Below, one piece after another: positions 21,938 through 43,901 of a stretch of 64,000 nucleotides of DNA. The notes under the pieces were generated by a model. The model was not told the DNA's origin. It made no database searches and saw only the letters and a program-made list of their open reading frames with translations. Each line of letters opens with the position of its first letter. The first letter of the stretch is position 1. Made by a program: the position numbers and the translations under genes. The DNA comes from a virus, in IMG/VR virus record IMGVR_UViG_3300010885_011653, positions 1 to 64,000 of that record. One strand, 5' to 3'.

Positions 21938-22082
21938 TCTTTGTAAGAACTTCTACTGCTGAAATACTTAAGGCAATAACAGGTTGCCCTGTTATTAGCC
22001 AAGCTATTAAAAACGTATCTACAGTACCAGTTACTCGCCAACTAACTGCTTTGGCAAAACTCCGAACTGGTGTATCACTCAT
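21876..22082 (-). CDS. DUF2061 membrane protein
   Basis: This 68-residue protein has one clear membrane segment (about residues 19-37, GTVDTFLIAWLITGQPVIA) followed by a second weaker one, and the DUF2061 marks RSFAKAVSWRVTGT, AVEVLTKIILFWFHERVW and a final IGWGR. DUF2061 genes in bacteria often lie next to sulfate-activation genes; here the neighbour is an APS-kinase-like fusion. Its end overlaps the convergent gene by 62 bases and its start overlaps the preceding gene by 4. Confidence 0.85.
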   Translation of the reverse strand: MSDTPVRSFAKAVSWRVTGTVDTFLIAWLITGQPVIALSISAVEVLTKIILFWFHERVWNRIGWGRQE

Positions 22083-22912
22083 CTCAATCCCATTTCTTCA
22101 CGAATTTTTGTAGCACTGATGTCTGTAATTGACTCATCAAACGTTTCTTCTCCTGATGTATAGCCAACGCCACGACCCCATCCAATGTGTACAATGTTAG
22201 GTACTACTTGTATATCGTACTGGCCTTGATATAAAGGATCAAGGTCACGTCTAATAAAGCCTTTGACTTTTTCTACTTCAAAAGGGTTTGAGCCTTGCCA
22301 TCCTTGTACATCACGCACTTGAATAATAACTTGTCCTGTCTTTTCTAATAGGCGTTCAAACAGCGCACGATGTCCTTTGTGCCACGGTTGCCAACGTCCT
22401 AGCATTTGCACAGTTTCTTTACGCCAGTCAAATTGCGGACGACGTTGCTGTTTAACAATACGTTTGCCCACATAAGAAGCCCACTTGTCTGCATCTTGTT
22501 CTGTAATACGAAAGTCGTAGTGGTCAGGTGGAATGAATGCTTTATTGGTATCTTCAAAGCGTCCGCTATCAATTGTATCCATCCAGATAGTCCAGTCTGC
22601 TTTAAAGTTATTACGCATTTCAACCAATGGACACACAAAGTCACAAATAACATAATCGCCCTGCGCTTCCATACTAAACTGAAACATACGAATACTTTGA
22701 CGTATGCGTCCTTCATTGCTAAAATCCCAATCGTTATACTTGCGGCGAATGTCGTCGGCATTAAACCAAGTTACTTCGCAATTTAAGTTAGTGTCCTGCA
22801 TCAATGCACGACTATAACTCATTTCGCCATGTGCTTCTAAATACTCTTTTAGTTTGCCGGCAAAGGTTGTTTTGCCTGATCCAGGTAATCCCATTATTAA
22901 TATACGTGACAT
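22079..22912 (-). CDS. APS-kinase-like P-loop kinase fused to nucleotidyltransferase
   Basis: This 277-residue protein has two domains. The N-terminal P-loop GLPGSGKT (residues 8-15), NADDIRRKYNDWDFSNEGR and YVICDFVCP follow the adenylylsulfate-kinase/zeta-like layout, phosphorylating a small alcohol or sulfate adenylate. The C-terminal domain has GRWQPWHKGH (HxGH-type signature, about 172-181) and ISATKIRE (about 265-272, the ISxTxIR motif), as in cytidylyl/nicotinamide-nucleotide adenylyltransferases. Such a fusion could phosphorylate and then nucleotidylate a head group for transfer. It lies in the minus-strand block, 10 bases after the first radical SAM gene, with AGGAG before its ATG. 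Confidence 0.82.
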   Translation of the reverse strand: MSRILIMGLPGSGKTTFAGKLKEYLEAHGEMSYSRALMQDTNLNCEVTWFNADDIRRKYNDWDFSNEGRIRQSIRMFQFSMEAQGDYVICDFVCPLVEMRNNFKADWTIWMDTIDSGRFEDTNKAFIPPDHYDFRITEQDADKWASYVGKRIVKQQRRPQFDWRKETVQMLGRWQPWHKGHRALFERLLEKTGQVIIQVRDVQGWQGSNPFEVEKVKGFIRRDLDPLYQGQYDIQVVPNIVHIGWGRGVGYTSGEETFDESITDISATKIREEMGLR

Positions 22913-22922: not shown

Positions 22923-24167
22923 TTATGTCCACTCTTGATCTAACCAAGGAAATGTTTCCTTCCAGTTAGTATTTCTACGCCTATCTAATTCAGTTAGATA
23001 AACTTTTAAATCATTAATACGTTTTACATCTCTTGTTTTACTGTTAATTTGTTTAAATACACCCGCTAAGTGTTCTCTGCTACTATCCCGGGGCATAAGT
23101 TCTAACACCTGTTCAAACTCTTGATCAAATGCACCTGGTCCAAATATGTCTGGCATCATTTGTACAGGTTGTACAGCACTCATAAAGCTGTACTGTATGG
23201 TTTTGTCTTTAGGGCGAACTTGATTCCAACGTACTAGATTTTCAATGAACTCAGGCATGGTCTTAATAGTTAATCCGGTAATAGTTGAATTAATAGATAA
23301 CTGTATCCAATCTTTAGTTAACATGTACTCAAAATTTTCTTGCCACTCTGTTAAATCTAATCCTTGCCTGACATATTCTTGTTCTTTGCCCCAGCAATCT
23401 AGACTGCACGACATCTGTAATTTTCTAATATGCTGATCAGCAACCATACGTTCAAAACGATCTATATACTTGCGAAACTTTTTAGGATTAACTTTTAAGT
23501 TAGTGACAATGTTAAATGTTAAATCAGGATTAGGGTGCGTATCCCAAAATTCTATACAGGTATCTAGTTCAGGTTGAAAGAAAGGTTCTCCACCCAACAC
23601 TTGAAAGTAACGTATATGGCGGCCTCGATCTTCTAGATACTTCCAGAAGTCTGCAAGCATACGTTCGTAATTGGGATTATTTTTAACAGGATAACCAAAC
23701 TTAACGTCTCCTTGATGAAACGCACCAAATCTTTTATTCTCTTCTTCCCACTTGGTGCTCAACCAACTGTTACAGTATACACAACTCATGTTACAAGTAT
23801 TATTAAAGTACACTTCTAGTATAGTGGGAGTTACTTCTATAGCAACGGGGTCAGTGCTTAACTCTGGTGGCGGCAATTCTCCTTCCCGGCCACTATTAAA
23901 CTGATACATACGATCGCTAGTGCCGCCTGCCGATTCAATACGCTGACAATATTGACAACCACCTTGCGGCCATTGTCCTCGCAACATAGTTCTACGTGCC
24001 TCTAGTTTACGTGGCAAGTTATGAAAGCCGGCAAAATTGTCAGGGTCTATAGGTAGTTGGTCACAACGATGACAACTACTAGTCACACCTTCTTTTAGAA
24101 AAACAGTTGACCACGACCATTTTAACAAACAGGCTGTGTCTGTTTTGATAGGAAATACTTTATTCAA
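22923..24167 (-). CDS. radical SAM protein with N-terminal twitch-type Cys region (group B)
   Basis: This 414-residue radical SAM enzyme has the cluster motif CNMSCVYC (C125, C129, C132), GGEP at 192-195 and IVTNLK after it. Before the barrel is a Cys-rich segment, CLLKW (C13), SCHRC (C32, C35) and CQYCQRIESAGGTSDR (C71, C74), which matches the N-terminal twitch type of radical SAM proteins, where an extra Fe-S cluster is expected ahead of the core. The KW...SCH form separates it, with the genes at 32723 and 34059, from the three PW...PCC genes of this block. Substrate unknown. Its start overlaps the carbamoyltransferase stop by 4 bases. Confidence 0.88.
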   Translation of the reverse strand: MNKVFPIKTDTACLLKWSWSTVFLKEGVTSSCHRCDQLPIDPDNFAGFHNLPRKLEARRTMLRGQWPQGGCQYCQRIESAGGTSDRMYQFNSGREGELPPPELSTDPVAIEVTPTILEVYFNNTCNMSCVYCNSWLSTKWEEENKRFGAFHQGDVKFGYPVKNNPNYERMLADFWKYLEDRGRHIRYFQVLGGEPFFQPELDTCIEFWDTHPNPDLTFNIVTNLKVNPKKFRKYIDRFERMVADQHIRKLQMSCSLDCWGKEQEYVRQGLDLTEWQENFEYMLTKDWIQLSINSTITGLTIKTMPEFIENLVRWNQVRPKDKTIQYSFMSAVQPVQMMPDIFGPGAFDQEFEQVLELMPRDSSREHLAGVFKQINSKTRDVKRINDLKVYLTELDRRRNTNWKETFPWLDQEWT

Positions 24168-25651
24168 CTGTGTACCTTAACATTATATGCTTGTTCGAAT
24201 CTGTCAGCGTCTGCGCGAGTATTGACCATTGGCTCTCCACGAATGTTTAATGACGTATTAAGCAACATAGGACACCCAGTTATCACAAACCACTTTTCTA
24301 ATAGTTCACGGATTCCACTTCCGCAATCTTTTTTAACTGTCTGTACTCTACTACTGCCATCGATATGAGAAATAGCAGGGTATAGGTCAGGGTACCGGCA
24401 AATGCCGACAGATTGCATGTAAGGGCTAGTACCCCAACCACGAGGCATATGGAAGTATTGATCCACAAATTCCTCCAAGATAATAGGGGCAAAGGGGCGA
24501 AACTTCTGGCGTCTTTTAATGTCATTTACTCGATCCTTTATATCTGGTCCTCGCGGGTCTGCAAAGAGACTTCTATTTCCAAGGGCTCTAGGACCAAACT
24601 CTGCTCGTCCACTAGCAACTCCAACGATTTTATCTGAGAGTAAACTATCAAGGAGGGCATTGACGGGATACTGGCTGCTAATCTCGTGACCGAGATATGC
24701 ATTTGTGAAGTTGAGCTTTTTTCCGTAGGCCAATGCGGCAGCGCCAAGGCTACTACCAGCATCGCCAGGATTAGGCATGATCCAAATATTTTCAAAATAC
24801 TCACCAAGATTTCTATTAGCTAGACAGTTTAGGGCAACACCGCCCTGGTATACTAGATTTATGCTCCACCCAAAGTTTTTTGCGCGGCGCATTATATTAT
24901 ATATCAAATTTTCACAAAGTGTCTGTGCAGAACTGGCAATTTCCTCGTTGTGTGCAAAATGATAGAAAAAGTCCGGATCTAGTCCTGTGTGTAGATTTTG
25001 TTTAAATGTTACGTCCCATTCGTTATGTATTAAACCGTTCTTAAATGTATCAGCAAATCTGGGCTTACCATATGCGCTCATGCCCATTAGAATGTATTCG
25101 TCTTCGTTGGGTTTGAGTCCTACACGTTGAGTCATTGCACTATAAAATAGTCCGATACTGTGCGGATATTTTTGTCCCCACAATCGTTTGTACTTTGCCT
25201 GTCCATTATGATATTCTGCCGCCCATATACTGATAGTGTCCCATTCTCCTATAGCATCAATGACAACCACAGTAGCACGTTTAAATGGACTTGTTTGGAA
25301 TCCTGCGGCCGCATGTGATAAGTGATGACTGTAGTTGACTATACGGTCTGGCAACACACAAGGACCAAACTGTTGTTTAAGTATTTGCTTAACTGTAAGT
25401 TTATTCCACTCTATGCCTTGCCCTGAGTATAATTGTCGTAACTGTTTCTTCCAAGGTATTTCGTAGTAGGCAATTGTGTCAATCGTGCCGGCCGCTTGCC
25501 ATGCATCCATGAGTAAGTCAGGGTGCAAATTTGGGTCATTTTTAATCCTGCTGTAGCGTTCGCTATGCCCGGCGTATAAGATGTTACCATTACCGTCAAC
25601 TACTGCGGCAGCGGCATCATGGAAGCCAGCTGAAATGCCTAATATATTCAT
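24164..25651 (-). CDS. O-carbamoyltransferase, NodU/CmcH/TobZ family
   Basis: This 495-residue enzyme of the family transfers a carbamoyl group from carbamoyl phosphate through carbamoyl-AMP to a hydroxyl. The N-terminal Kae1-like domain opens with ILGISAGFHDAAAAVV and has the metal-binding SHHLSHAAAGF (about residues 108-118); the C-terminal YrdC-like domain has GRAEFGPRALGNRSLFADPR and FRPFAPIILEE. It is shorter than typical members (about 550-600) but keeps both domains. Family substrates are sugars and antibiotic scaffolds, which fits the neighbouring glycosyltransferases. It is coupled to the radical SAM gene downstream and overlaps the SGNH gene upstream by 35 bases. Confidence 0.92.
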   Translation of the reverse strand: MNILGISAGFHDAAAAVVDGNGNILYAGHSERYSRIKNDPNLHPDLLMDAWQAAGTIDTIAYYEIPWKKQLRQLYSGQGIEWNKLTVKQILKQQFGPCVLPDRIVNYSHHLSHAAAGFQTSPFKRATVVVIDAIGEWDTISIWAAEYHNGQAKYKRLWGQKYPHSIGLFYSAMTQRVGLKPNEDEYILMGMSAYGKPRFADTFKNGLIHNEWDVTFKQNLHTGLDPDFFYHFAHNEEIASSAQTLCENLIYNIMRRAKNFGWSINLVYQGGVALNCLANRNLGEYFENIWIMPNPGDAGSSLGAAALAYGKKLNFTNAYLGHEISSQYPVNALLDSLLSDKIVGVASGRAEFGPRALGNRSLFADPRGPDIKDRVNDIKRRQKFRPFAPIILEEFVDQYFHMPRGWGTSPYMQSVGICRYPDLYPAISHIDGSSRVQTVKKDCGSGIRELLEKWFVITGCPMLLNTSLNIRGEPMVNTRADADRFEQAYNVKVHS

Positions 25652-26303
25652 TGATGTTTTCTGCTATTTGTTGATGTCCTGCTTCGGTTGGATGGCCACC
25701 AGGAAGTTTTTGGTCAGAGGAAAAATAATAGCACATGGTCTTATACCCATTGGATCCATTAAGATTACTAGTTGGGTGTCCAATGAAATATCTAAAGTCT
25801 ACTTTGTCCCACAGATCCTGTGTATCTTCTGTTGGTGCCCAATCGTGCCATGTTACTAACATTAGATAGCGTTTACCTTGATTAGCTAGTAAATTTTGTG
25901 TTACGATAATATCTCTAATCCATTTACGCATACACCACAGATCAAAGTGTTCGTTGTGATCAAGCGTAAGTGCTTTGATTAGAGTTTCTTTATGTTTATT
26001 ATCAACGGCTTTTAAATTTCTACCAGGCCATACGTCGTATGGGGTACCGTTTAAAAATTCTATCCTATTAGGACTAGTCCAGGAAATAACTACTAACTCA
26101 GCGTCATCTTTAAAAGCTGTGTCAACTATTCTTTTAACCAATCTGGTATTGCCGCAGGCCCTACGACCCAAATTAGTAACAGGACGATTGGTTAATTGTC
26201 CTAGTTTACCGGGCCAAGCATTTGGACTTGGGTGTTGATTGTCCCACCCAGCATCTGTCAGCTCGTCACCGTAGGTAAAGCTGTCGCCTATACAGTATAT
26301 CAT
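25617..26303 (-). CDS. SGNH hydrolase-like protein
   Basis: This 228-residue protein has IGDSFTYGDEL at residues 5-15 (block I, nucleophile Ser), LGRRACGN in the block II region and a C-terminal GGHPTEAGHQ with the catalytic His. The usual GxND block III is not obvious. It may be an esterase or O-acyltransferase acting on a glycan. It overlaps the carbamoyltransferase by 35 bases and starts in an ATGA overlap with the 21-residue ORF. Confidence 0.75.
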   Translation of the reverse strand: MIYCIGDSFTYGDELTDAGWDNQHPSPNAWPGKLGQLTNRPVTNLGRRACGNTRLVKRIVDTAFKDDAELVVISWTSPNRIEFLNGTPYDVWPGRNLKAVDNKHKETLIKALTLDHNEHFDLWCMRKWIRDIIVTQNLLANQGKRYLMLVTWHDWAPTEDTQDLWDKVDFRYFIGHPTSNLNGSNGYKTMCYYFSSDQKLPGGHPTEAGHQQIAENINEYIRHFSWLP

Positions 26304-26365
26304 TTGTAAATAAAAGGGTCTCGTTTTTTAAGTGCTCGCATCTTTCGGCGATAATGTATTTCCAT
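26300..26365 (-). CDS. tiny basic protein, 21 residues
   Basis: This ORF of 21 codons encodes MEIHYRRKMRALKKRDPFIYK. It begins 1 base after the stop of the upstream SGNH-like gene (TAAAATGG) and its TGA overlaps the next ATG (ATGA). Coupling at both ends is the evidence that it is translated; without it the ORF could be chance. It is very basic (about eight Lys/Arg) with a final PFIY. I recall similar short basic ORFs ending in DPFIY in marine phages, but cannot verify this here. Confidence 0.55.
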   Translation of the reverse strand: MEIHYRRKMRALKKRDPFIYK

Positions 26366-26366
26366 T

Positions 26367-26942
26367 TTAATTCTGTTGTAAATGTTTTGTAACCATTTCA
26401 TTGAATTTTCCTTGTATAAGTTTTGCGGCATCAACATGTGCCTGTTCCAGTGGATGTTGATCTGGTCCACACGGATAATTGTTTTCTATTGCCCATTGAT
26501 AAAAACCTCTCGGCGTTTGTGTGTTCCACGCTTCTTCCGCGGGCGGAAACAAAAACCAATGGTCCCAATCTGTTGCATCATCTAACCATTCTAATAAACA
26601 GTTATCAGCACAGGTAAACAGGTATGGTATGTTACGTTCTTCCAGCCGTGTTTGTGTGTCTTGTATTACAACTCGACTAGTAAATGCGTTATGTCCTCTT
26701 AGAGGCCAAGTCCAACATGCTATTACAAACATTTCATCGTTGCTATTGTTAGCCATGTGTTTGGATAAAAAATGCATAATATTGTAGTTACATTCCCCAG
26801 GAGAGGCAAGACAATGATACTGATTATCTCCCGCTAACAATGCTGTAAAAGTCTTTCGGCTGTACCCGTTGGGGCCGCTGTGACGGCAATCAGCTAACTC
26901 ACTTCCCCAAACAAAACTATCACCCCCGGCTACTATAATCAT
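26367..26942 (-). CDS. SGNH hydrolase-like protein
   Basis: This 191-residue protein opens with VAGGDSFVWGSELAD (GDS block I) and ends with DQHPLEQAHVDAAK (block V, catalytic His). It is similar in layout to the SGNH protein one gene downstream, suggesting a local duplication. It has no signal peptide. Substrate unknown; O-acyl groups on the product of the pathway are plausible. It overlaps the preceding gene by 23 bases. Confidence 0.72.
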   Translation of the reverse strand: MIIVAGGDSFVWGSELADCRHSGPNGYSRKTFTALLAGDNQYHCLASPGECNYNIMHFLSKHMANNSNDEMFVIACWTWPLRGHNAFTSRVVIQDTQTRLEERNIPYLFTCADNCLLEWLDDATDWDHWFLFPPAEEAWNTQTPRGFYQWAIENNYPCGPDQHPLEQAHVDAAKLIQGKFNEMVTKHLQQN

Positions 26943-27996
26943 ATCCTGGCTTCATCATGTCTATTTGCATTTGTTTGTATGCGGTATCAGTCCAACAATA
27001 TTTAAATTTATTGCCAACACCGTCTACTTCTATGCTGTATATATCTAAGTGCTCGCCTAGTATATCCCAAATTGTTTGTCCATCGGTTGTTCCAAAACTT
27101 GATCTCAACTCTACTTGTCCAATTGGCAAGTATCCAAGACTTAACTTGGGATCTTTATAATCCTTATTGTTGGCAGTAAGCCATTGACGGAACTGATCTT
27201 GTTCTATATTATGCCAAGGTTGCTTGCCACCATATACTACATCATTGCCCCACTCTACATCAAACTCGCCTGAGTAATACTTTAACTCGGTAATAGCTTC
27301 ACATACTGTGTCAGTTAACTCGGGTGCATGTTCGTCACGGAATACTTCAAATAAGGTTTTACCTATTTGTGTCCAGTGCATATACACTCCACCTAGTACA
27401 CGATCATATCCGTTAGTCGCAAATAATTCTCTATGTGAGTCTTTTAAGTCTAGTCTAGTACTGTTAATGAATGTAGTAATTTGACTAGGGCGTACCCAAA
27501 AAGGTGCTGTTGCTTGTTTACGTTGACTTAAGATTAAGTTTTCTACTTCGTGACACAGATTATTTAACTGACGAATGGCGTATTTGGTATCGTGGTCCGC
27601 ACGTCGATAATAATCACTTAATCCCCACACAGTACCTTGTAATCTTTCAAAGTGATTGTGCAGTATGTTCATAGTTGTATGATTGATACCATGCTCGGCA
27701 TAATCATAGCCCACTACATTATCAGGAGTGAATGTTTCTTCAATGCGATAGTCAGTAAAGAAACTGTTTACTTGTTTGACTGCTAGATTAATTTCATTGC
27801 ATAGGTAATCTAAGTTACGAGCTGTGTTAGGGAAGCCCATAAAGCAATAATTCTTTTCTAGTAAGCTACCGGACTGTAACAAACCCTTTAATGCTCGAAT
27901 CCAATCTCGTGACAACTCATGATCAAATGAATTGATCACATAGTCAACTTGGTCGTTGTAATTGAGAGGATTACGTAGTACAATTTTGATTGTCAT
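26920..27996 (-). CDS. hypothetical protein, 358 residues, in the radical SAM block
   Basis: Not recognised. A soluble, aromatic-rich protein with NYCFMGFPNTARNLDYLCNE (about residues 48-67), a His-rich helix HGINHTTMNILHNHFERLQG (about 101-120), GVYMHWTQIGKTLFEVF and a C-terminal PIGQVELRSSFG. Its segment order (a helix with IHxLHxxxxxxxGT, then W-rich strands, then Gly-His) resembles the 262-residue protein at 29.4-30.2 kb, so the two may be distant relatives. A role as substrate or partner of the radical SAM enzymes is only inference from position. Confidence 0.6.
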   Translation of the reverse strand: MTIKIVLRNPLNYNDQVDYVINSFDHELSRDWIRALKGLLQSGSLLEKNYCFMGFPNTARNLDYLCNEINLAVKQVNSFFTDYRIEETFTPDNVVGYDYAEHGINHTTMNILHNHFERLQGTVWGLSDYYRRADHDTKYAIRQLNNLCHEVENLILSQRKQATAPFWVRPSQITTFINSTRLDLKDSHRELFATNGYDRVLGGVYMHWTQIGKTLFEVFRDEHAPELTDTVCEAITELKYYSGEFDVEWGNDVVYGGKQPWHNIEQDQFRQWLTANNKDYKDPKLSLGYLPIGQVELRSSFGTTDGQTIWDILGEHLDIYSIEVDGVGNKFKYCWTDTAYKQMQIDMMKPGYDYSSRG

Positions 27997-28133
27997 TAGA
28001 ATGCCGGTGGAGGGAAAAAATCGTCCTTATCGTTAAGAACTTCTGGATTCTTTTTTACATAGCAATACATACAAACAACATATACTATTCCTACAAATAC
28101 TATAAAAATTAAAGGGAAATATTCTTCCACCAT
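27996..28133 (-). CDS. small single-pass membrane protein, 45 residues
   Basis: The ORF (45 codons) encodes a short acidic start MVEEYF, one membrane segment (LIFIVFVGIVYVVCMYCYV, about residues 8-26) and a cytoplasmic-type tail ending DDFFPPPAF. Its start overlaps the end of the radical SAM gene by 25 bases and its TAA overlaps the next ATG (TAATG). Hydrophobicity and coupling make it credible. It could anchor part of the pathway at the membrane. Confidence 0.65.
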   Translation of the reverse strand: MVEEYFPLIFIVFVGIVYVVCMYCYVKKNPEVLNDKDDFFPPPAF

Positions 28134-29404
28134 TTTAATACCTCTGGCCTTTCTGCCAATATATCTTCCATAGTATACACGTCTTTACGAATTTCTTCAA
28201 GACGTTGTATACGTTGTTTACCTTTGATTAGTCCAGATTTGTAAGTGTCTGGCCACTGTTCAGCAAAAGTGGGTCTGGTTTTCAGTTGAGCAAGTACGTC
28301 CCTTAGAGCTCCGGTTGTTTTCCCGGAAATATGTTCGTCTATCCAAGGATGTAATAATTCCCGGGGTAGTGCTAAAGGCGACATGACAATGTCAGGGCCG
28401 AAACTAAAAACTACTTTTGCTAATACGTCTACATCTAGTTGTCTTGAAAGCTGTTCGATACGTGTAACTTCGAACATTCCGGGCAAAGTGAGCGTAAAGT
28501 CAATTCTTGTTTGACGTCTGTGACGTCTGATTTTAACTCCTTGACTGAAGTTCTCAAGCCACGCATTAAAGTCAAGGCCCGTCCTAATATATTCTCCAAT
28601 TTTGCCTGTTCCGTCGAGTGACGCACAGATTTGCCAATCCCGTAACCCGCTGAGAATATCACTATAAAGATTAATACCTCTATAATTGACCCTACTAAGA
28701 TTTGTGTTGTACCGAGCGTAAACATTTGGCCCGTCTCCTAATTCTATTATGCGCTTCATGTACTTCCAATGTTGTTCGTACATTAGCGGTTCGCCTCCCA
28801 CCCAATACACCTCTTCTACACGGTGCTCTTCTACAGCAGTAGAAAACTCTTGCTCTACCTGGGTATCTTGAAACGTTTCTATTTGTTTTTTGACTTCAGG
28901 ACGCATCCAATTATTTTTTGGATTTGTATAGTCGACCATGTCATGTTGCTTCTGTTCAGTTTCCCAAGCACTCGACAACATGTCGCCGCACATACGGCAC
29001 TTAAAGTTACACAAGTTACTAAAACGATAATCCCAACTAACAGGTAACATTGTGGTATAGCCAGTGGGATCTGTGTTTTCCATGACTGTATTATACTTAT
29101 GTCCAAATAACTGATTAAAATAACTGCGGTAAACATCTGTGTTTAATAGCTTGTCGTTACATACTTCACACTCTGGGAGGGTTTCCCCGCGCATCATACG
29201 CAGGCGCACGGATCTCATGTGCTCACCATTCCAATGCTCATCCAGGGTGATGGGTATGTATCGGCCAGTTCCAGATTTGGTATCTATATACTGCTCAAAG
29301 TTTTGTGCAGGTTCACGAGATGCACAGCACATACGTCGCTCTGTTTGCGGACTTAGATAGGTGTGAGTCCACGGTGCCATGCATAGTGTTGCTGGATTAG
29401 TCAT
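28109..29404 (-). CDS. radical SAM protein with N-terminal twitch-type Cys region (group A)
   Basis: I choose ATG 29404 (MTNPATLCMAPW, 431 residues) since this places the conserved CMAPW at residue 8 and gives an 8-base overlap with the previous gene; a start at 29422 is also possible. N-terminal auxiliary cysteines: C8, C26-C27 (MCC), C79 and C82 (CEVC). Core motif CNFKCRMC at C132, C136, C139; VGGEPLM follows. The order of auxiliary region before core is opposite to the usual C-terminal SPASM. Substrate unknown. A nested frame at 28435-28725 is discussed in the findings. Confidence 0.87.
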   Translation of the reverse strand: MTNPATLCMAPWTHTYLSPQTERRMCCASREPAQNFEQYIDTKSGTGRYIPITLDEHWNGEHMRSVRLRMMRGETLPECEVCNDKLLNTDVYRSYFNQLFGHKYNTVMENTDPTGYTTMLPVSWDYRFSNLCNFKCRMCGDMLSSAWETEQKQHDMVDYTNPKNNWMRPEVKKQIETFQDTQVEQEFSTAVEEHRVEEVYWVGGEPLMYEQHWKYMKRIIELGDGPNVYARYNTNLSRVNYRGINLYSDILSGLRDWQICASLDGTGKIGEYIRTGLDFNAWLENFSQGVKIRRHRRQTRIDFTLTLPGMFEVTRIEQLSRQLDVDVLAKVVFSFGPDIVMSPLALPRELLHPWIDEHISGKTTGALRDVLAQLKTRPTFAEQWPDTYKSGLIKGKQRIQRLEEIRKDVYTMEDILAERPEVLKWWKNISL

Positions 29405-30185
29405 TGAATGATAAACTCTCAAATTCTAATATGCCACTGTTGACTACTGCATGTAAGTCGTTTAAGTTGGTTACACGCCCAACTACAGGGTATCCTGTGT
29501 AATGTATAATCTTTTCTACTCCGTGTTCTTCTAAGAAGTCAGGACCGTGCGCCCAAAAGAATTTAATCAATGCTTCAAAGTCTTTAAATTCTGGATAGTC
29601 TGTTTGTGCTATGTTAATACCTGCTTTGATAAAGTTGTGGAACTTACAAGTTTGGCTAATGTTGATACCATCTTGTTCCTGAAATAACTGTAGAGGACCG
29701 TGTCCTACATAAGGGTTAATTAATTTAACATCACCAAAGTCAAAACTACGTTTAAACTTAAAATCTGTGTCTAAGGGAAAGCCCACTGGTAAATGATATT
29801 CTAATTGTAACCAGCTTGTTCTATCACCTGTGCCAAACTGTGTTAGGTGTAAGCAATAGTGTAACTCGTGTATGAGTTCATCTTGTTGTTCAGTAATCTG
29901 ACTAAAGCCCGTTGCTAGTAGTGTTTCTAAATTCTTATGTAAGCTAGGAGCAATGCCTATGTTAATGTCTTCGTGTTCATCCCAAGTCCAGCCAAATTCT
30001 CGTTTAGCCTGTTGACTTAATTCTCTCATGTACTCGGGTGTATACTTTAATACGTCTCTGTATATAGTTGGGTGTCTACTATATGTGGCTTTGATTAGTT
30101 TAGCAAACTTATTCCCAACGGCGGTATCATCAATGGCTAAATTGAGTTCGGGACGATCTTTAAATTTAACTTGTATATTAGGCAT
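29397..30185 (-). CDS. hypothetical protein, 262 residues, between radical SAM genes
   Basis: Not recognised. Features: FGWTWDEHEDINIGIAPSLH (about residues 63-82), a His-containing helix ELIHELHYCLHLTQFGTGDR (about 103-122), DVKLINPYVGHGPLQLFQEQ (about 150-169) and EEHGVEKIIHYTG near the C-terminus. The arrangement recalls the 358-residue protein at 26.9-28.0 kb. It lies between two radical SAM genes with 8-base overlaps on both sides, so it is probably part of the same process. Confidence 0.6.
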   Translation of the reverse strand: MPNIQVKFKDRPELNLAIDDTAVGNKFAKLIKATYSRHPTIYRDVLKYTPEYMRELSQQAKREFGWTWDEHEDINIGIAPSLHKNLETLLATGFSQITEQQDELIHELHYCLHLTQFGTGDRTSWLQLEYHLPVGFPLDTDFKFKRSFDFGDVKLINPYVGHGPLQLFQEQDGINISQTCKFHNFIKAGINIAQTDYPEFKDFEALIKFFWAHGPDFLEEHGVEKIIHYTGYPVVGRVTNLNDLHAVVNSGILEFESLSFND

Positions 30186-31389
30186 AACCCATTGCTCTGG
30201 CTATTTCAGGATGCGTATCTGTAAAACATTGTTTACGATATTCATCTGTTTGTTTCATCTTAAATAAGAATTCACTTCCGTCACTGCCAGGACCTGCTTC
30301 GATAAAATTAATCACGCTGTTAATTTCTTCTTGGTACGACTTGCTGGTCCAGAATGTTGTTTTTAATTTATTAAGAACTAGTTCTTTTGCCCGAGGAGTC
30401 ATATACTGTATGCTCATATGATCGGGGCTGTGCATCATGTTAAAGTAAATGCTACCAAAGGGTTTAGTATTTGCCCATGCCAGTAATTCATCCAAGTAGT
30501 ATACGTTCTGTATGTTGATAGTGAAGCATAACTGTGTGGTAATGTTAGGGACACTCATTTTTTTCATTATGTGAATTTCATCAATGATGATGTTTGATTC
30601 TTGCCAGTTAGCCCCATAACGCTCGTATTCAAATCTATTACCCACATTGTCTACACTAAATGCAATGTCCACACGACCAAAATTCTTCCATAGTCCCCAG
30701 TGTCCACCAGGATACTGTGTAGCATTGGTATTGTAGTGTATATCAATATGTTGACTATCACCAGTTTCAACTGCGTATTCTAATAGATCAAAGTGTTCTT
30801 TGATCATCCAGGGTTCGCCGCCAGTAAACTCAAAGTACTTGATGTTCGGCAACAACTCACGCATGTTATCCCAGAACGTTTCAGTCTTACGCGGCCAAGC
30901 GCCTTGCTTTAACCATTGGTATGCTATGTGTTGTTTCTTATCAACACCGGGCATATACTTTAGTTCTTCTTCTGCCCACTTACTACTGGACCAAGAGCCG
31001 CATATACGACATTTAAGGTTACAAATGTTACCCAGCTTTAAATCAACAAACCAAAGTTGATCGGGATTGTCATTGGTCCAATCTACTTCTTTGTACAGTT
31101 CTTTAAGTCGTACTTGTGTATGCATACGCTTGCTAGTACGGCCCGCGGCTTCTTCTTCCCAACAACGGTTACATGTTGCAGGTTTTTCACCTGCGCGAAA
31201 CTGTTGCCGTAAATTTTGCATATAAGTACTACGATATGCTGTTTCAATATTGGTTTTAGTTAAGTCGTACTTGTTGCCGGCTTCGTCTGTAATTTCTTCA
31301 TGTGCCATACAGCAAGGACGTACTGTGCCCATTGGGCTAGTTTCTACGCTAATCCAAGGTAACATACAAATTGAACTGGGTAATGTCAT
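30178..31389 (-). CDS. radical SAM protein with N-terminal twitch-type Cys region (group A)
   Basis: This 403-residue protein has CMLPW (C8), RPCC (C26, C27), CNRCWEEEAAGRTSKR (C73, C76), the core motif CNLKCRIC (C123, C127, C130), then TGGEPWM and HYNTNATQY. The N-terminal block matches the SPASM/twitch consensus C-PW...G...PCC...C-C, moved in front of the radical SAM barrel. At 403 residues it is the most compact of the group and a good model for comparing the others. It overlaps both neighbours (8 and 4 bases). Confidence 0.9.
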   Translation of the reverse strand: MTLPSSICMLPWISVETSPMGTVRPCCMAHEEITDEAGNKYDLTKTNIETAYRSTYMQNLRQQFRAGEKPATCNRCWEEEAAGRTSKRMHTQVRLKELYKEVDWTNDNPDQLWFVDLKLGNICNLKCRICGSWSSSKWAEEELKYMPGVDKKQHIAYQWLKQGAWPRKTETFWDNMRELLPNIKYFEFTGGEPWMIKEHFDLLEYAVETGDSQHIDIHYNTNATQYPGGHWGLWKNFGRVDIAFSVDNVGNRFEYERYGANWQESNIIIDEIHIMKKMSVPNITTQLCFTINIQNVYYLDELLAWANTKPFGSIYFNMMHSPDHMSIQYMTPRAKELVLNKLKTTFWTSKSYQEEINSVINFIEAGPGSDGSEFLFKMKQTDEYRKQCFTDTHPEIARAMGYA

Positions 31390-32726
31390 CGTTTAATTGT
31401 TGCTAATTCTGGAAATACTGTAAAGAAATCTTCCCCGCGCAAATTATCTAACTTGGCCGTTTCGTTTAAGAACGCCCCCATAAATCCACCATTGCGTTTG
31501 GCGTTTATCATGTTGAGCGCACTTTGAAATCCGTTGCTGGCTCTACGTAAATCATCTTTAGGCACTAACCATTTTAAATGACTTTTATATGCTGGAGTAA
31601 TAACATCATCTTTAAACTCTTGTGGAAATATATCAACACGATACCATTCGGGACTTTGACAAATGTTTACGTTAAAATCTTTGGGCTGTATCAATCCTAA
31701 CTCAACCCATTCTTTGTGAAAGTCCAAAACGTGTAACACATTCATAGCACTGATGGTTGCCGCAACATAAAAGTCTACATGCGGAACTTCTTCCATCATG
31801 CGTCTACGGTTATCCACAGTTTGTGCCCAATCTGTTCCTTTTCGCATTAGCTCCGCTCTAGCTCCGCTTGCATCTAAGCTGGCTCCAACGCTAACATTGG
31901 TAAAATGTTTCCAATATTCGAATACGTGTTTATCTTTATATGCCAATTCGCTAAAGTTTGTATTGTACTGTATACGTATATCTGTTTTACCTGCTTCAAT
32001 TAACTTCTCTAGCAAGTAATAATGTTCCTTCATAATCAGCGGTTCGCCACCGGCAAAGTACACCTGCTCTAAGTGAGGAATATGTGGCTCCATTTGTTGA
32101 AGCATGTCTTCTTCATCACCGGTAGTGTACTCTATACGTGCCATTGGACGATTTAGCACGTCTGGGTCCTTACCGTATAACTTTTTATGATCGTTAAACC
32201 AATTACTACTAAAGATAGGACCGCAACTACGACAACGGAAATTACATAAATTACTAAAGCGAACGTCCCAGTAGCGTATTTCAAATTTGGGGTTAGTACC
32301 ATCAGATAATGTGTCATCTACTTCGGCAATGTGCTGTCCGTAACTACGATTGGCATCATTACGCATACTAAAGAAACCATTTTGCTCTTGCTCGTAGCAC
32401 TTGGTACATTCTTTACATGGCTTGTCTTCCATCATATTAGTACGCATTAGTTTATATGGATCTTGATTCCATACTTCTTCCATTGTGTTCTTGCGTAGGT
32501 CTCCTACTGGATGCCAATACTCACTTAGACAACAAGGATAAGCACGACCGTCCGGGAAGGCATGCATGTGTACCCAAGGCATCATGCAGAATGTTTCGCT
32601 TTCAGTTAATCGATTCCATTGTTCGTCTGTGCATTGATCGCGTTCAATGAAAAAAGGATCCTTTACATTGTAACTGTATCCTCTTTTATAAAATCGTTTA
32701 ATCTTATCTTCTTCTTGATCGCTCAT
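31386..32726 (-). CDS. radical SAM protein with N-terminal twitch-type Cys region (group A)
   Basis: The start is placed at ATG 32726, which overlaps the upstream TGA (ATGA) and gives 446 residues; a start at 32741 is possible. It has an extra N-terminal helix of about 40 residues before CMMPW (C47) and YPCC (C65, C66); CKECTKC adds C104, C107 and C110, one more Cys than its relatives. Core CNFRCRSC, AGGEPLIM and QYNTNF are intact. It is closest in pattern to the group A genes at 28.1 and 30.2 kb. Confidence 0.88.
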   Translation of the reverse strand: MSDQEEDKIKRFYKRGYSYNVKDPFFIERDQCTDEQWNRLTESETFCMMPWVHMHAFPDGRAYPCCLSEYWHPVGDLRKNTMEEVWNQDPYKLMRTNMMEDKPCKECTKCYEQEQNGFFSMRNDANRSYGQHIAEVDDTLSDGTNPKFEIRYWDVRFSNLCNFRCRSCGPIFSSNWFNDHKKLYGKDPDVLNRPMARIEYTTGDEEDMLQQMEPHIPHLEQVYFAGGEPLIMKEHYYLLEKLIEAGKTDIRIQYNTNFSELAYKDKHVFEYWKHFTNVSVGASLDASGARAELMRKGTDWAQTVDNRRRMMEEVPHVDFYVAATISAMNVLHVLDFHKEWVELGLIQPKDFNVNICQSPEWYRVDIFPQEFKDDVITPAYKSHLKWLVPKDDLRRASNGFQSALNMINAKRNGGFMGAFLNETAKLDNLRGEDFFTVFPELATIKR

Positions 32727-34072
32727 ATTGAATTGTACCAATCTGCCAGTGCAGGAAATGTTTGTGTAAAGTTTTTACCACGACGCTGATCGTATTGTGT
32801 GTAAAACTGTTTGAAGTCTTGTTGTAGTACTGATTGTTCTGCGGCGCCCATATGAGGAGTTTTAACTACATCTAAGTAATCGATTAGTCTTTGTAGTTGA
32901 TTGCGTTCCATCTGGTGTAAGAATTCATCATTTCTATTAGCATCTAGCCAGGCTTGTAATCTAAAACGATATTGTGTACGTAACTCATCTGATAGTACTA
33001 AGGGACTTTGAAAACTTGGAAAGCGTAAAATATTTAGCGTAAACGTGGGGTAGTCTTTACCGTATTCGCGTTTCCAATTCAGTATACATTCTAAGAATTG
33101 ATCCAGTGTGTCTAAACATAATGCGTTAATAGTACACATCATGTGGAAACCTTCTATCCTGCCATTGGTTAGGACTTTTTCTACATTGTTAGCCCAGTCA
33201 TCCCATACTAACCCATCACGTATGTATTCTGCTTGCGTACCCATTGCTTCGTTACTAGTGTACAAATGAAAGTGCTTGATGTTTTGACTAGCATCAATCA
33301 TACGATCAATTAGCTCGTCTTTGGCACCCAGGTTACTGTTAAGAGCAAAGCGCATGTCAGTGTCATTATTCTTAAACCAATCTAACAGTTTAAATGTTTC
33401 TCCGGACATTAATGGCTCGCCGCCAGTTAGTCGTAATTCCAAGAGTGTTTTATGTAAGTCTGATTCCCACCATTTAAAGAACGCTTCAACATAAGGATTA
33501 CTTTGACCAAACTTATAAAGCTGACTACTACCATGGTTATGAGTAAAATGATTCCTACCGTCTGAAGTGAGATTTGTGTAAGGCCCGTGAACATCGATAT
33601 CTTTAACCCAAGTACTACTGAAAGCAGGGTTACAGTAGCTACACCCAAAATTACATGTACGATCAAAAGCAATCTCAAGCGTTCGTAAATCCACGTCAGC
33701 TGATGGGTTAAGTCTATAGGCATCATCGAGTTCCTCATCTTTGTATATAACAGTTTTGTAAACACGATCGCTGATGTTGTCCCGACCAATGTCTTCTATT
33801 TTCCAACAGTACTCACACCCAGATGGTCTTTTGCCCTGTTGCATCTGAGCACGTTCCTCTTTTTTCTTGGGTGTGTTGTGCAATGCTTTGGGGTTTGCTT
33901 CTACTTCTTCCACACTTACTTTATGCGGTAATGGGTGATGACAACTTGTAGTCATTCCAGATCCCAACCATATAGTAGCGTTGTACCATTTTGCTCCACA
34001 GAATGACTCTGACTTGATGTCAATCACACGGTGCTTGTATTCTAAATCAGTTTCGTTATTAATTCTTGGCAT
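32723..34072 (-). CDS. radical SAM protein with N-terminal twitch-type Cys region (group B)
   Basis: This 449-residue protein has CGAKWYNA (C25), TTSCHHP (C44), GCEYCWKIEDIG (C86, C89), the core motif CNFGCSYC (C140, C144, C147), and LTGGEPLM with NSNLG after it. In group B the first block reads C-x2-KW and the PCC is replaced by SCH, leaving four N-terminal Cys that could hold one extra 4Fe-4S cluster. It overlaps its neighbours by 4 and 14 bases, so it is tightly coupled. Confidence 0.88.
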   Translation of the reverse strand: MPRINNETDLEYKHRVIDIKSESFCGAKWYNATIWLGSGMTTSCHHPLPHKVSVEEVEANPKALHNTPKKKEERAQMQQGKRPSGCEYCWKIEDIGRDNISDRVYKTVIYKDEELDDAYRLNPSADVDLRTLEIAFDRTCNFGCSYCNPAFSSTWVKDIDVHGPYTNLTSDGRNHFTHNHGSSQLYKFGQSNPYVEAFFKWWESDLHKTLLELRLTGGEPLMSGETFKLLDWFKNNDTDMRFALNSNLGAKDELIDRMIDASQNIKHFHLYTSNEAMGTQAEYIRDGLVWDDWANNVEKVLTNGRIEGFHMMCTINALCLDTLDQFLECILNWKREYGKDYPTFTLNILRFPSFQSPLVLSDELRTQYRFRLQAWLDANRNDEFLHQMERNQLQRLIDYLDVVKTPHMGAAEQSVLQQDFKQFYTQYDQRRGKNFTQTFPALADWYNSI

Positions 34073-35441
34073 AGTATTCGCATTCTTTCCAGAACTCTTT
34101 CATTTCTGGAAATGTTTTTAAAAAGTCGGTATCTCTGCGTTGATCGTGTTCGTGAAAGAAACGATAAAAATCAGCACGTTGTAGTTTAACATAATCAGGG
34201 TCTAAATTGCGACCTTCTTTCATCCAGTCTATATCCCTACGCATACGCTGTATTTCGTAATCTTTAAAACCTTGAAATGGACGTTCTTCAGTTTCTAAAT
34301 GTAATTCCATCCAGTCTGCTACACGTTCTAGTACACCAATGTAGACTTCGGGCAGTATCTGTAAACTTTGCCAGGCTGGTTGTCTTAGTAAAGGAGTATC
34401 AAACCAAACACGTTGATATGTGCTACTGTACATTTTTCGTAAATCTAAAATCCATTCTAATTGTTGTTGTATGCCTAACACACTTAGATTATTCATTGTA
34501 ATGATAAACGTAAGACTATTGCGATAGGGAATCTCATCTAAGAATCTATGCACTCGATCCCATACACGTCTGAAGTTTAATCCGTTGCGAATATACTCAG
34601 CATGTCTGGGATTTCCAGAATCTAAACTTACGTATTGCATAAAGTGTTCTATCTGTGTGCCGCATAATTCTTTAACATAACCCAGGTATTTTTCAAACAA
34701 AGGTTCTTCAACACTAAAGTTACTTGTTACATTTAAGTGTAGTTCGGGATTAGGCAATGCTAACACATAGTCAAATACTTTATAAGTATTCTTATCCATT
34801 AGCGGCTCGCCACCGGTCATGCGAAAATGTTTTAAGTGGGGATATAGTGTGGGCCACCATTCCCAGAATGCATCAACATATGGATTATCTTCTCTAGTAG
34901 GAATTGGTCTATTACGGCCAGTAAAATGGCTAGGATCATTGTGAACAGTACTAGTAGGATAGCCACCCCAACGGTCAACCTCTTGTTGCCAGCTCGAGCT
35001 GAACTGTGGACTACAATAACTACATTTGAGATTACAAGCGTGATTAAAATTAACTTCAACATAACTAGGTACAACATCTTCATCTCCGGTACTATTCTGA
35101 ATAGTATCAAAATCACTTGCAGCCCAGGGCTCACCTGAACGATAGTGTCTGTCGCTTAACTGTCCGTGTGCTTCTATATTCCAACAATAACTACATTCTG
35201 CGGGCTTTTCATTCTTAAGCATTATAACCCGTTGTTGTTTTTTATATGCTGTATTATGTAGTGCGCCCGGATTGTCTTTAAGTGCATCTGCATCAATTGC
35301 GTGAAGTGGCGGGTGGTAGCAGGAGTTGTTTAGTCCTGTGGGCAAGTGTAAACTAACTTGTTTCCATTTAGCCAAACAAAGTGCAGGACCTAAGTTCGCC
35401 TTCATCCATTCAGCTGATGCCATAAAATCGCTTTTAGACAT
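34059..35441 (-). CDS. radical SAM protein with N-terminal twitch-type Cys region (group B)
   Basis: This 460-residue protein has CLAKWKQV (C22), NNSCYHPP (C41), CSYCWNIEAHG (C83, C86), the core motif CNLKCSYC (C136, C140, C143), MTGGEPLM and NVTSNF. Its closest relative in the window is the gene at 32723, with which it shares PSxHFTxNxG-type middle segments, NPYVDAFWEWW and the final DQRR-T-FP segment, so the two look like a tandem duplication that then diverged. The start at 35441 overlaps the upstream SGNH-like gene by 8 bases; ATG 35423 is an alternative. Confidence 0.88.
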   Translation of the reverse strand: MSKSDFMASAEWMKANLGPALCLAKWKQVSLHLPTGLNNSCYHPPLHAIDADALKDNPGALHNTAYKKQQRVIMLKNEKPAECSYCWNIEAHGQLSDRHYRSGEPWAASDFDTIQNSTGDEDVVPSYVEVNFNHACNLKCSYCSPQFSSSWQQEVDRWGGYPTSTVHNDPSHFTGRNRPIPTREDNPYVDAFWEWWPTLYPHLKHFRMTGGEPLMDKNTYKVFDYVLALPNPELHLNVTSNFSVEEPLFEKYLGYVKELCGTQIEHFMQYVSLDSGNPRHAEYIRNGLNFRRVWDRVHRFLDEIPYRNSLTFIITMNNLSVLGIQQQLEWILDLRKMYSSTYQRVWFDTPLLRQPAWQSLQILPEVYIGVLERVADWMELHLETEERPFQGFKDYEIQRMRRDIDWMKEGRNLDPDYVKLQRADFYRFFHEHDQRRDTDFLKTFPEMKEFWKECEYYAKN

Positions 35442-36156
35442 AGCCTCTACTTTTTAATTCAGTGTATAAAAATTCTGCATACACAGTATAAGCCCACTCG
35501 TTTGGGTAATTAACGTTATCTGGGTCAGTCCATCCACGTTCTGTGGCCAAATCTATTAGATGTTGTTCTGTGTAGAATTGTGACCAATCGATTAATTGAT
35601 ATAAATTTTTATATCTATCGAATTTTTTTAATGTACCAGGGGTCATGAAAAGATAGGGAATTTTCATTTCTTTAAGAACACCTTGTAAACTAACAACTCT
35701 AATTAGACTCTGTTGTACCAGCTCTGCATACTTTACTACACTAAAATAATCCACAAACAACCGGCTAATAGTATCCAGCTCTTCTTTTGATTTTTTCTTT
35801 TTTCCAAAACTTTCTACCAGGTATCCTTGGCTACTGATCCAGTTTTCTGGAACATGATTATCTTGCGGCATTCCTTCGTGTATTCCTTTAAGATGATTGG
35901 AAGTCCAATAATTATTATCAAATTGGTCAATGCTACCAACTTGCCAGTCTGCACGTACCATTGTTTCCGGCCACATAACTAATACTAAATCAAATTTCTC
36001 TTTAGATAATTTTTCAACTGTACTTTCGTGTACGTAAGTGTATCCGGTGCCCGGACACGAAATATTGATTATTTCGCATTCCATTTTATTTTTAAGCTGG
36101 TTAGGCCAGGCGATAGGTTTAGCACTTATTGATGCGCCGTTAACTAGTATTTTCAT
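35434..36156 (-). CDS. SGNH-like protein with degenerate nucleophile block
   Basis: This 240-residue protein begins ILVNGASISAKPIAWPNQL, where the usual GDS block reads NGASIS, and has SCPGTGYTYVHEST, LVMWPETMVR and a C-terminal NYPNEWAYTVYAEFL in place of the usual HPxxxGH. Ser is kept but the Asp/His pairs are changed, so activity is doubtful. It may be an esterase relative or an acyl-binding protein. It overlaps the next glycosyltransferase-like gene by 4 bases. Confidence 0.55.
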   Translation of the reverse strand: MKILVNGASISAKPIAWPNQLKNKMECEIINISCPGTGYTYVHESTVEKLSKEKFDLVLVMWPETMVRADWQVGSIDQFDNNYWTSNHLKGIHEGMPQDNHVPENWISSQGYLVESFGKKKKSKEELDTISRLFVDYFSVVKYAELVQQSLIRVVSLQGVLKEMKIPYLFMTPGTLKKFDRYKNLYQLIDWSQFYTEQHLIDLATERGWTDPDNVNYPNEWAYTVYAEFLYTELKSRGYV

Positions 36157-37046
36157 TCGCGTGTCATTGGTCCTTGATTTTTAAAATTGCTCTTATAGTG
36201 GTGTTTGAAAAACTTACTTTCTGCAGGTTTTATGTCCACAATAGGCAATCCCAATCGTATACGTAGTATGTCGCCTACATTGATACTTTGGTCTGTACCA
36301 TCTTGTTTGAATGATTCCCACAATCGAGCCAGCACATCAAAATCTTGTACATCTTGATAATTCCACCCTTCCAGCATGATCATAAACGTTCCAAGGCGTG
36401 CGCCGTATATGGCCCACATGCCATTGTCAACATCTGCGCCTACACTTTGCCAAATACACAAGTGATCATAGTTGCGATTGTTCACACGGGTTTCAAATTC
36501 TTCTAGTGAGGGCTTATGTCCTCGATCCAAACACATCTTTACGCCTTCACGAAACCCGGCGCGCCATGCTTGAAAAGGGCTGGCGTTAGGATAAGTTGTA
36601 CTGTAGCAATCATTCATAGCCCAGTAATTGGGATAAAAACAAAACTCTACATCATTGGCTTCACTGCCGTCACTATTCTCGTGAGTACGCATATTTCGTA
36701 TAAATTCTTTTGTCCAACAACTCATACCACCATTGCCGTACATCAATCCATTGATAATATTACGGCTGCGCCAACGAAACACACAATCGCTATTACTGCT
36801 ATCCAGAGTAAGTTGTAAATTAAAAAATTCGGGATCAGGTATGTTATCACCGTCAATAAGAATAAACCGCTCAGTATCACTTGCATCAGCCGCAGCCTTA
36901 TGTGCCGCATCTGATCCCTTGACCCCGTCCACTCGCTTTGCCCAAGGCACCATGTTTTGAATTTTAATCCAAAATTCTTCTTTTTTAGGTTCATCATATG
37001 TTAAGTAAATGCAGTCTAAGTCTGCTACATCAATTATATCTGTCAT
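36153..37046 (-). CDS. GT-A-like glycosyltransferase with DGDN motif
   Basis: This 297-residue protein starts with a Rossmann-like LDCIYLTYDEP (about 10-20), has DGVKGSDAAHKAAADAS, and the metal-binding motif LIDGDNIPDPEFF (DGDN at 65-68). The later NIINGLMYGNGGMSCW and AFQAWRAGFREGVKM-type segments match the C-terminal module of the 808-residue protein. It looks catalytically complete, unlike those modules. It is one of five glycosyltransferase-like genes of this block. Confidence 0.7.
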   Translation of the reverse strand: MTDIIDVADLDCIYLTYDEPKKEEFWIKIQNMVPWAKRVDGVKGSDAAHKAAADASDTERFILIDGDNIPDPEFFNLQLTLDSSNSDCVFRWRSRNIINGLMYGNGGMSCWTKEFIRNMRTHENSDGSEANDVEFCFYPNYWAMNDCYSTTYPNASPFQAWRAGFREGVKMCLDRGHKPSLEEFETRVNNRNYDHLCIWQSVGADVDNGMWAIYGARLGTFMIMLEGWNYQDVQDFDVLARLWESFKQDGTDQSINVGDILRIRLGLPIVDIKPAESKFFKHHYKSNFKNQGPMTRE

Positions 37047-37392
37047 AGTACTCTACGTTGTTATATTCTTCTTTGGGGTATAATGCTATTGCGGCATTGC
37101 CTGCTACTACTCTTTGTCCTGTAGTACCTTTTGATAGTACAGTTCGGTTCTGTGTCTTTACTTCTATCTTTTTTAATTTTCCGTCAACAACACGAAGCTG
37201 ATTAGTATTTGTTTGATTAAATTCGTCGGGATGATTTAATACAATGTAATTGCCTTCAGGATGATCTGTTTCCCATAGACCAATTATACTGCCATCGTCA
37301 TTGTAATACAACCTAAACTCTTTTACCTGCTTAGGTCTATTACGATCATATTCAGCTACTAGTTCAAGTGCTTTTAAGAATTCTGGATTCAT
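37030..37392 (-). CDS. hypothetical protein
   Basis: This 120-residue protein has a first half that is helical and basic (FLKALELVAEYDRNRP); the second half is beta-type with DDGSIIGLWETDHPEGNYIVL and ends in YNNVEYYDRYN. No family recognised. It overlaps the glycosyltransferases on either side by 17 and 29 bases. Confidence 0.6.
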   Translation of the reverse strand: MNPEFLKALELVAEYDRNRPKQVKEFRLYYNDDGSIIGLWETDHPEGNYIVLNHPDEFNQTNTNQLRVVDGKLKKIEVKTQNRTVLSKGTTGQRVVAGNAAIALYPKEEYNNVEYYDRYN

Positions 37393-38984: not shown

Positions 38985-39306
38985 GTTCTTGATGCCATGT
39001 GTTCATTGCCTGTTGATAGTGCTGACAAGCAGTACGGTAAAATTCTGCACAATTTTCAATTTGAATAGGATTGCCGTACGTATCTTCCATAAACATATTT
39101 TCCCCGCCACCCCAGGGCCATACTTCATCTGCACTACGCCAAGCATGTACAAAGGAGATTAATTCTGGTGTGGCCTTAAATAAGCCACCGGCATAAGCAA
39201 AGTGCAGATCAGTTTGAATCTTTTCGCGCAGGATTGCTCTGTTAATTTGATGGTTGGTAGATTGGTGAATTGCAGAAACAAGATTGTCGAGTTCAGCGTT
39301 TATCAT
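38953..39306 (-). CDS. conserved phage hypothetical protein
   Basis: This 117-residue helical protein has LREKIQTDLHFAYAGGLFKATPELISFVHAW and a C-terminal coiled segment (EHAELKRLRRI). The pattern resembles small proteins near tail-fibre genes in T4-like phages. It is the first gene downstream of the promoter inside the terminator hairpin at 39.32-39.37 kb, so it probably opens the long minus-strand block. Confidence 0.6.
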   Translation of the reverse strand: MINAELDNLVSAIHQSTNHQINRAILREKIQTDLHFAYAGGLFKATPELISFVHAWRSADEVWPWGGGENMFMEDTYGNPIQIENCAEFYRTACQHYQQAMNTWHQEHAELKRLRRI

Positions 39307-41912: not shown

Positions 41913-41933
41913 CTTTTAATCCTCTAATTAAGT

Positions 41934-41943
41934 GTATTTATGC
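41934..41943 (-). promoter_or_regulatory. T4-type late promoter motif
   Basis: GCATAAATAC on the minus strand, 21 bases before the fibre gene start at 41912. The core ATAAATA and the spacing agree with the motifs at 5180 and 62131. Confidence 0.5.
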
Positions 41944-41959
41944 TCGTTTTATATATTGT

Positions 41960-43870: not shown

Positions 43871-43901
43871 TTTTATTCTCTTTATACTTACTTATCTAAA
43901 A

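Follow-up and report, generated by a model that had tools for sequence, protein, structure and literature searches.

Among radical S-adenosylmethionine (SAM) enzymes, those whose auxiliary cluster is fully ligated often catalyse two-electron oxidations in which this cluster accepts the second electron, as in BtrN and anSME (PMC6231123). BtrN, the twitch radical SAM dehydrogenase of butirosin biosynthesis, holds its auxiliary cluster through four Cys ligands in the pattern CX(9-15)GX4C ... CX2C, within a domain C-terminal to the core. A subfamily with the twitch domain ahead of the core is named in NCBIfam as NF033640 (N_Twi_rSAM), for which no function was found. Six genes of this subfamily are described here from the IMG/VR record IMGVR_UViG_3300010885_011653, a 93-kb sequence of a T4-like virus of bacteria, of which the first 64 kb (64,000 nucleotides, hereafter the window) were analysed. 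The window encodes T4-type baseplate wedge proteins and the T4-type major head protein, and five of the six genes, B3, B2, A3, A2 and A1, form a set with a fixed order in related viruses.

T4-like phages rich in radical SAM genes have been reported before. The host recognition cluster of pelagimyophages includes radical SAM cassettes (PMC7029224), and the T4-like genome TARA_ERS488813_N000010 holds 12 radical SAM genes together with an A-type carrier (PMC5332604). These phages likewise combine tail fibres, glycosyltransferases and radical SAM cassettes, although the available portions of the two reports give gene counts and do not describe the subfamily, orthogroups, fixed order or bacterial counterpart. 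The T4-related Campylobacter phages CP220 and CPt10 also carry many radical SAM genes (11-12, including a five-gene module; PMC2853527), but the CP220 genome has no N_Twi_rSAM match anywhere, and the Campylobacter phage genes were rejected as relatives because they are not of the N_Twi type. Vibrio phage K566 (OZ196521), a named phage genome, has five N_Twi-type matches, four of them clustered; however, only two pass the family cut-off, identity to A3 is about 25% and B2 is without a match. In the literature searched, which leaves out most subscription journals, no description was found of an ordered five-orthogroup set or of the hairpin split between A and B enzymes set out below.

Six enzymes with an N-terminal twitch domain

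B1, A1, A2, A3, B2 and B3 are full-length matches to NF033640 (profile positions about 1-398), scoring 225, 282, 339, 401, 311 and 301 bits respectively against a curated cut-off of 170 bits, with E-values of 1e-66 to 1e-120. An earlier note on this DNA had placed a Cys block ahead of the radical SAM motif in all six proteins and likened them to N-terminal twitch proteins. Both points are borne out, since a Cys block precedes CxxxCxxC each time in the alignment and the assignment corresponds to a named family. Because all six proteins match it above cut-off along their full length, the auxiliary-before-core arrangement is what defines this subfamily, which is known but functionally uncharacterised. 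The full-length genes keep the coordinates given to them earlier and lie on the minus strand, reading in coding order B3 (34059..35441, 460 amino acids), B2 (32723..34072, 449 amino acids), A3 (31386..32741, 451 amino acids from a TTG start, an alternative ATG being possible five codons downstream), A2 (30178..31389, 403 amino acids), A1 (28109..29422, 437 amino acids) and B1 (22923..24167, 414 amino acids), the last being the most divergent and variable of the six. The two groups had been thought to alternate along the DNA; the actual order is BBAAAB.

Aligned, the six proteins share C-x2-[PK]W, a Cys after a beta-hairpin, CxxC and then the core CxxxCxxC, and both this core motif and GGE (GGEP in the window) are invariant in the alignments. 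The auxiliary and core Cys are residues 22, 41, 83, 86 and 136, 140, 143 in B3; 25, 44, 86, 89 and 140, 144, 147 in B2; 52, 70, 112, 115 and 166, 170, 173 in A3; 8, 26, 73, 76 and 123, 127, 130 in A2; and 14, 32, 85, 88 and 138, 142, 145 in A1. The 80 viral loci and the window together give 356 sequences, in which each of the six window groups keeps the four auxiliary and three core Cys at a frequency of 93-100% (0.98-1.0 for the Cys of B3). The auxiliary Cys of B2 and B3 account for the values of 93-98%, some of their open reading frames (ORFs) being apparently truncated, and all the other Cys reach 100%. The four Cys of a BtrN-type full ligation are therefore available in every orthogroup.

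The twitch motif CX9-15GX4C plus CX2C, with hairpin strands between the first two Cys and the CxxC in a helix, is present, A1 being without the conserved G of GX4C (TERRMCC). The group A profile matches the BtrN twitch domain at 1.7e-5, although the full-length proteins are not end-to-end homologous, the domain being C-terminal in BtrN and N-terminal in the window proteins. The N terminus of A3 matches Pfam SPASM (6.5e-13), which covers the first part of that domain; the second CX2CX5CX3C block of the seven-Cys SPASM pattern was not found, only four auxiliary Cys being conserved. A phmmer search of the PDB with A3 gave no match. Confident AlphaFold2 models of A3 and B2 (predicted local distance difference test scores of 93.6 and 93.5) run Cys, beta-hairpin, Cys, helices and CxxC helix, which at the level of topology, not of inter-Cys distances, is consistent with the twitch layout described for BtrN and SkfB; to that extent the models do not contradict the earlier note.

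The earlier note had divided the six into two motif groups, the second of which had supposedly lost one Cys of a PCC pair. The split itself, PW/PCC against KW/SC[H/Y], is genuine, being kept across 49-58 orthologs of each orthogroup, with two corrections to the motifs as first written: group A has C-x2-PW rather than C-x-PW, and B3 has SCY where SCH had been given for all of group B. The second Cys of PCC is indeed absent from group B, but no ligand has gone with it. The Trp is followed by the SC or PC pair after 13 residues in group B as against 12 in group A, so that the first two auxiliary Cys are 19 and 18 residues apart respectively; because the hairpin is one residue longer, the Cys of SC[HY] sits on the GX4C ligand position, as does the first PCC Cys of group A. 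Group A sequences have two successive Cys at this point (PCC, MCC or LCC), and in group A-like sequences the first of the pair is invariant and the second only about 90% conserved; in A3 the second is Cys 71, a non-ligand. When the group A profile is aligned with SkfB, the first Cys of the pair falls, with an identical 18-residue spacing, on C351, which follows the SkfB hairpin and has been seen experimentally to be a cluster ligand (PMC6231123). The SkfB alignment and the conservation pattern rule out ligand loss in group B, and the A/B split can no longer be read in that way. The missing second Cys is predicted to have no effect on the cluster, and the prediction for each of the six enzymes is a SAM-cleaving [4Fe-4S] cluster plus one auxiliary cluster with full Cys ligation, in a BtrN-type twitch that here lies N-terminally.

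Five orthogroups, ordered in viruses and present in bacteria

In FastTree phylogenies group B is a single clade (Shimodaira-Hasegawa support 0.93-0.98), the lower value belonging to the clade of B1, B2, B3 and all bacterial KW...SC[HY] sequences. The expected division into two clades thus stands for group B but is not borne out for group A, whose members A1, A2 and A3 represent three old and independent lineages; 'group A' is therefore a mere remainder. The phage orthogroups A2, A3, B2 and B3 are each monophyletic (0.997-1.0) and A1 is nearly so, and each of the five has distinct relatives among bacteria. Members of one orthogroup are 65-73% identical, against 19-32% between orthogroups. The adjacent B2 and B3, once taken for a tandem duplication, are 31% identical to each other and 66-73% identical to their own orthologs in other phages. 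A recent duplication is rejected by these identities and by the tree; since identity within orthogroups is far above that between them, B2 and B3 split long before these phages diverged.

The viral loci come from a search seeded with A3, which gave 80 loci; A3 is found in all of them by design, and there are near-duplicate contigs among them. All five orthologs are held by 53 of the 80, and the order is B3-B2-A3-A2-A1 in every one of these 53 (A2 being doubled in four). B1 stands outside this conserved order, with B1-best matches in only 5 of the 53 loci. Large relatives carry 5-16 N_Twi genes each. An A-type iron-sulphur (Fe-S) carrier is encoded in 8 of 20 relatives and an IscU-type scaffold in 4 of 13; neither was found in the window's own 93-kb record, itself a fragment. 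A more distant contig (L091) has the same layout, with tail-fibre-like genes, homologs of three module genes described below (G257, G289 and G297), one B and three A-type genes. This contig, titled as part of a Rhodobacteraceae metagenome-assembled genome, looks like a T4-like phage fragment, its assignment being a probable binning error. Near-identical N_Twi sets, each including one copy interrupted by two in-frame stop codons, TGA and TAG, occur on contigs of 220 and 357 kb that come from different samples (G007 and G019, loci L010 and L058).

Bacterial relatives were sought in 291 genomes of the phylum of a locus titled Bdellovibrionaceae (L089; Bdellovibrionota), 95 of which have N_Twi genes. 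In one of these Bdellovibrionota (L144) the five types occur together as a single operon-like run, B2-A1-A2'-A3-A2-B3-B2, beside obgE and rplU (recognised by eye), which makes the run chromosomal. Eight genomes have an A1 ortholog and 12 a clear B2 ortholog, defined by a score above 550 bits because the scores leave a visible gap from 570 to 420; seven genomes have both. This co-occurrence has P = 2e-10 over the 291 genomes and 5e-7 over the 95 with N_Twi genes, statistics that ignore phylogeny. Three of the eight bacterial A1 copies (L158, L159 and L160, in G076, G103 and G177) carry one in-frame stop each, from decay or sequencing error. The invariant viral synteny and the A1-B2 co-occurrence support the earlier suggestion of a single pathway. 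Its further suggestion of two substrates or two steps is too small for at least five non-redundant orthogroups.

The surroundings of the bacterial genes are in part sugar-like. B2 orthologs at L178 and L186 adjoin an ABC-2 exporter and an ABC ATPase, with DegT and carbamoyltransferase neighbours at L178 and a group 1 glycosyltransferase at L186, which L184 resembles by sequence clustering. At L089 two B genes lie within a cluster of glycosyltransferase, DegT-type, nucleotidyltransferase and epimerase genes (annotated partly by eye), and homologs of G297 adjoin N_Twi genes in six loci (L134-L138, L141). A protein of 300-320 amino acids with an 'SDLDLT/SDIDLT' motif, nucleotidyltransferase-like by eye, also recurs beside bacterial N_Twi genes (L144:14829-15791, L180, L181, L184 and L186).

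The surrounding gene module

All six radical SAM genes belong to a minus-strand run of 18 genes (39306 to 22079) whose ORFs overlap or nearly touch, the largest gap being 112 bases. The run begins just downstream of tail-fibre and virion structural genes (40350..46357, minus strand, with phrog tail fiber/collar matches), and tail-fibre genes are likewise upstream of the module in relatives. Among 37 loci with full flanks, CARB and G297 are present in 37, G257, G289 and X358 in 36 each, and KIN in 32.

Unless stated otherwise, the genes that follow are on the minus strand. CARB (24164..25651), a NodU/Nol-like O-carbamoyltransferase, is the one sugar-cluster component whose identity is certain (Pfam Carbam_trans N and C, 1e-39 and 7e-47; phrog_1601, 9e-91). 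KIN (22079..22912), in which a kinase-like domain is fused to an HxGH nucleotidyltransferase-like domain (phrog_10255, 8.7e-45; Pfam APS_kinase, 6e-6; CTP_transf_like, 0.005), is a likely kinase/nucleotidyltransferase and may activate a phosphosugar or small molecule. Glycosyltransferases are suggested by motifs. G297 (36153..37046) has an invariant, DxD-like DGD motif (D65 and D67) and is a probable glycosyltransferase; G257 (38211..38984), with a DAD motif (D89 and D91 invariant), is probably a nucleotide-sugar glycosyltransferase, and its paralog G289 (37364..38233; blastp E 4e-6; phrog_1903, function unknown) is a probable glycosyltransferase.

SG1 (25617..26303) is SGNH/GDSL hydrolase-like (Pfam Lipase_GDSL_2, 6e-5, under the curated cut-off), and SG2 (26367..26942, GDSFVWG) and SG3 (35434..36156, in 7 of the 53 five-set loci) are SGNH-like by eye. 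The small conserved proteins S120 (37030..37392) and S117 (38953..39306, between the tail-fibre genes and the module) occur in 32 and 31 of the 37 loci, and the uncharacterised Y262 (29397..30185), between A2 and A1, in 2 of the 53. X358 (26920..27996), adjoining A1, averages about 63% column identity across phages and has many invariant residues; it matches nothing in Pfam, PHROGs, NCBIfam or the PDB, and represents a new conserved family tied to A1.

Nearby genes outside the conserved module encode an NAD-dependent sugar epimerase/dehydratase (16256-17230, plus strand; Pfam Epimerase, 4e-40) and a DegT/DnrJ aminotransferase (17118-18320, plus strand; Pfam DegT, 3e-83). Beyond the 18-gene run are also the large repetitive protein GT808 (18298..20724), related to G297 (blastp E 3e-8 to 1e-4), and G404 (20723..21937, plus strand), whose conserved 'TEKIFKP' block makes it probably glycosyltransferase-like. 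Elsewhere in the window, a 3971-amino-acid ORF between a baseplate wedge gene and the tail-fibre genes (47077-58992, minus strand) is possibly the counterpart of pelagimyophage VrlC, and a QueE-like radical SAM gene (700-1560, plus strand; phrog_2076, 1.7e-55), unrelated to the six enzymes, suggests 7-deazaguanine DNA modification.

Possible roles of the five-enzyme set

The reading favoured here, at a probability of about one half, is a multi-step radical pathway that tailors a phage-directed surface glycan or the virus's own fibres. The ancient and co-inherited ordered set of B3, B2, A3, A2 and A1 most likely runs successive or parallel radical steps, of dehydrogenation, epimerisation or deoxygenation type, on a carbohydrate. 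The same sugar would be handled by KIN, the probable glycosyltransferases, the SGNH hydrolases and the O-carbamoyltransferase, and would end up on the surface glycan of the infected host, so as to keep out rival phages, or on the tail fibres of the phage itself, whose genes adjoin the module upstream. Lineage-specific conserved Cys (the invariant C266 of A1, C288 of A2, C313/C319 of B2) could act as hydrogen donors in epimerase-type steps, an idea only. Phage glycan clusters with nucleotidyltransferases and glycosyltransferases are known from other large phages (PMC7824862).

Several observations weigh against this reading. G257, G297 and G404 have no Pfam or PDB profile match, the glycosyltransferases of the module being recognised by motifs only. 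No glycosyltransferase lies beside the five-gene bacterial run, and most bacterial neighbours are without a telling annotation; a Pfam tally of 146 neighbours includes glycosyltransferase family 2 in 9, without a matched background, so that enrichment near bacterial N_Twi genes is suggestive only. The nearest characterised twitch/SPASM enzymes comprise both peptide modifiers (anSME, CteB, SuiB, EpeE) and sugar-type enzymes (BtrN, BlsE, AprD4, DesII), and for this reason the fold does not decide the substrate.

Peptide substrates are the basis of the strongest alternative, in which the five enzymes would put radical modifications (cross-links, epimers, oxidised residues) on the upstream-encoded tail fibres, as anSME and sactisynthases do on peptides. 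The position of the fibre genes in the window and its relatives fits this proposal, as do the top Foldseek matches (CteB, anSME and SuiB, all peptide modifiers), but it is rendered unlikely by a context of carbamoyltransferase, DegT and nucleotidyltransferase genes that is sugar-like and by bacterial counterparts that adjoin polysaccharide export or house-keeping genes instead of fibres. NCBIfam and Pfam profile scans of the six proteins also found no peptide-binding domain resembling PqqD or the recognition element (RRE) of ribosomally synthesised and post-translationally modified peptides (RiPPs). RiPP maturation with a local precursor is unsupported, as the overlapping genes leave no room for a precursor peptide.

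Two further alternatives are each distinctly improbable. NodU-type carbamoyltransferases are established as acting on antibiotics too, and the twitch domain matches that of BtrN, an aminocyclitol dehydrogenase; both would suit a pathway to a free secondary metabolite, an aminoglycoside-like small molecule and not a surface polymer, and cyanophage clusters have prompted a proposal of this kind (PMC7824862). The module has no recognised transporter and no recognised core of small-molecule biosynthesis, however, and the proximity of tail-fibre genes favours surface recognition. The genes might instead be an ordinary expansion of an oxidoreductase family into interchangeable, partly redundant paralogs without a common pathway. 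The family is indeed expanded in relatives, and Campylobacter phages have 'interchangeable' sets of unrelated radical SAM genes (PMC2853527), but redundant copies would not be expected to keep five ancient orthogroups the same and in the same order in 53 of 53 loci, nor to show the coupled presence of A1 and B2 in bacteria. Viperin-like antiviral nucleotide synthesis for superinfection control is rejected, since the viperin matches are weak and core-only (NF038283 at 18-22 bits against a cut-off of 180), viperin has no auxiliary cluster domain, and five different paralogs would be left unexplained.

With surface glycan tailoring as the preferred reading, a broader proposal can be put forward more tentatively: that T4-like and larger phages from aquatic samples and some Bdellovibrionota have in common a radical SAM pathway of five steps or five sites, which makes a novel radical-modified sugar for the control of phage or host surfaces. 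If this sugar chemistry is true, it would amount to an unusually dense set of radical enzymes for glycan tailoring, dependent on oxygen-sensitive clusters for which some relatives bring Fe-S assembly genes. A widespread and functionally blank family gains a testable context, consisting of five co-travelling orthogroups, their partners (CARB, G297 and X358) and a bacterial counterpart.

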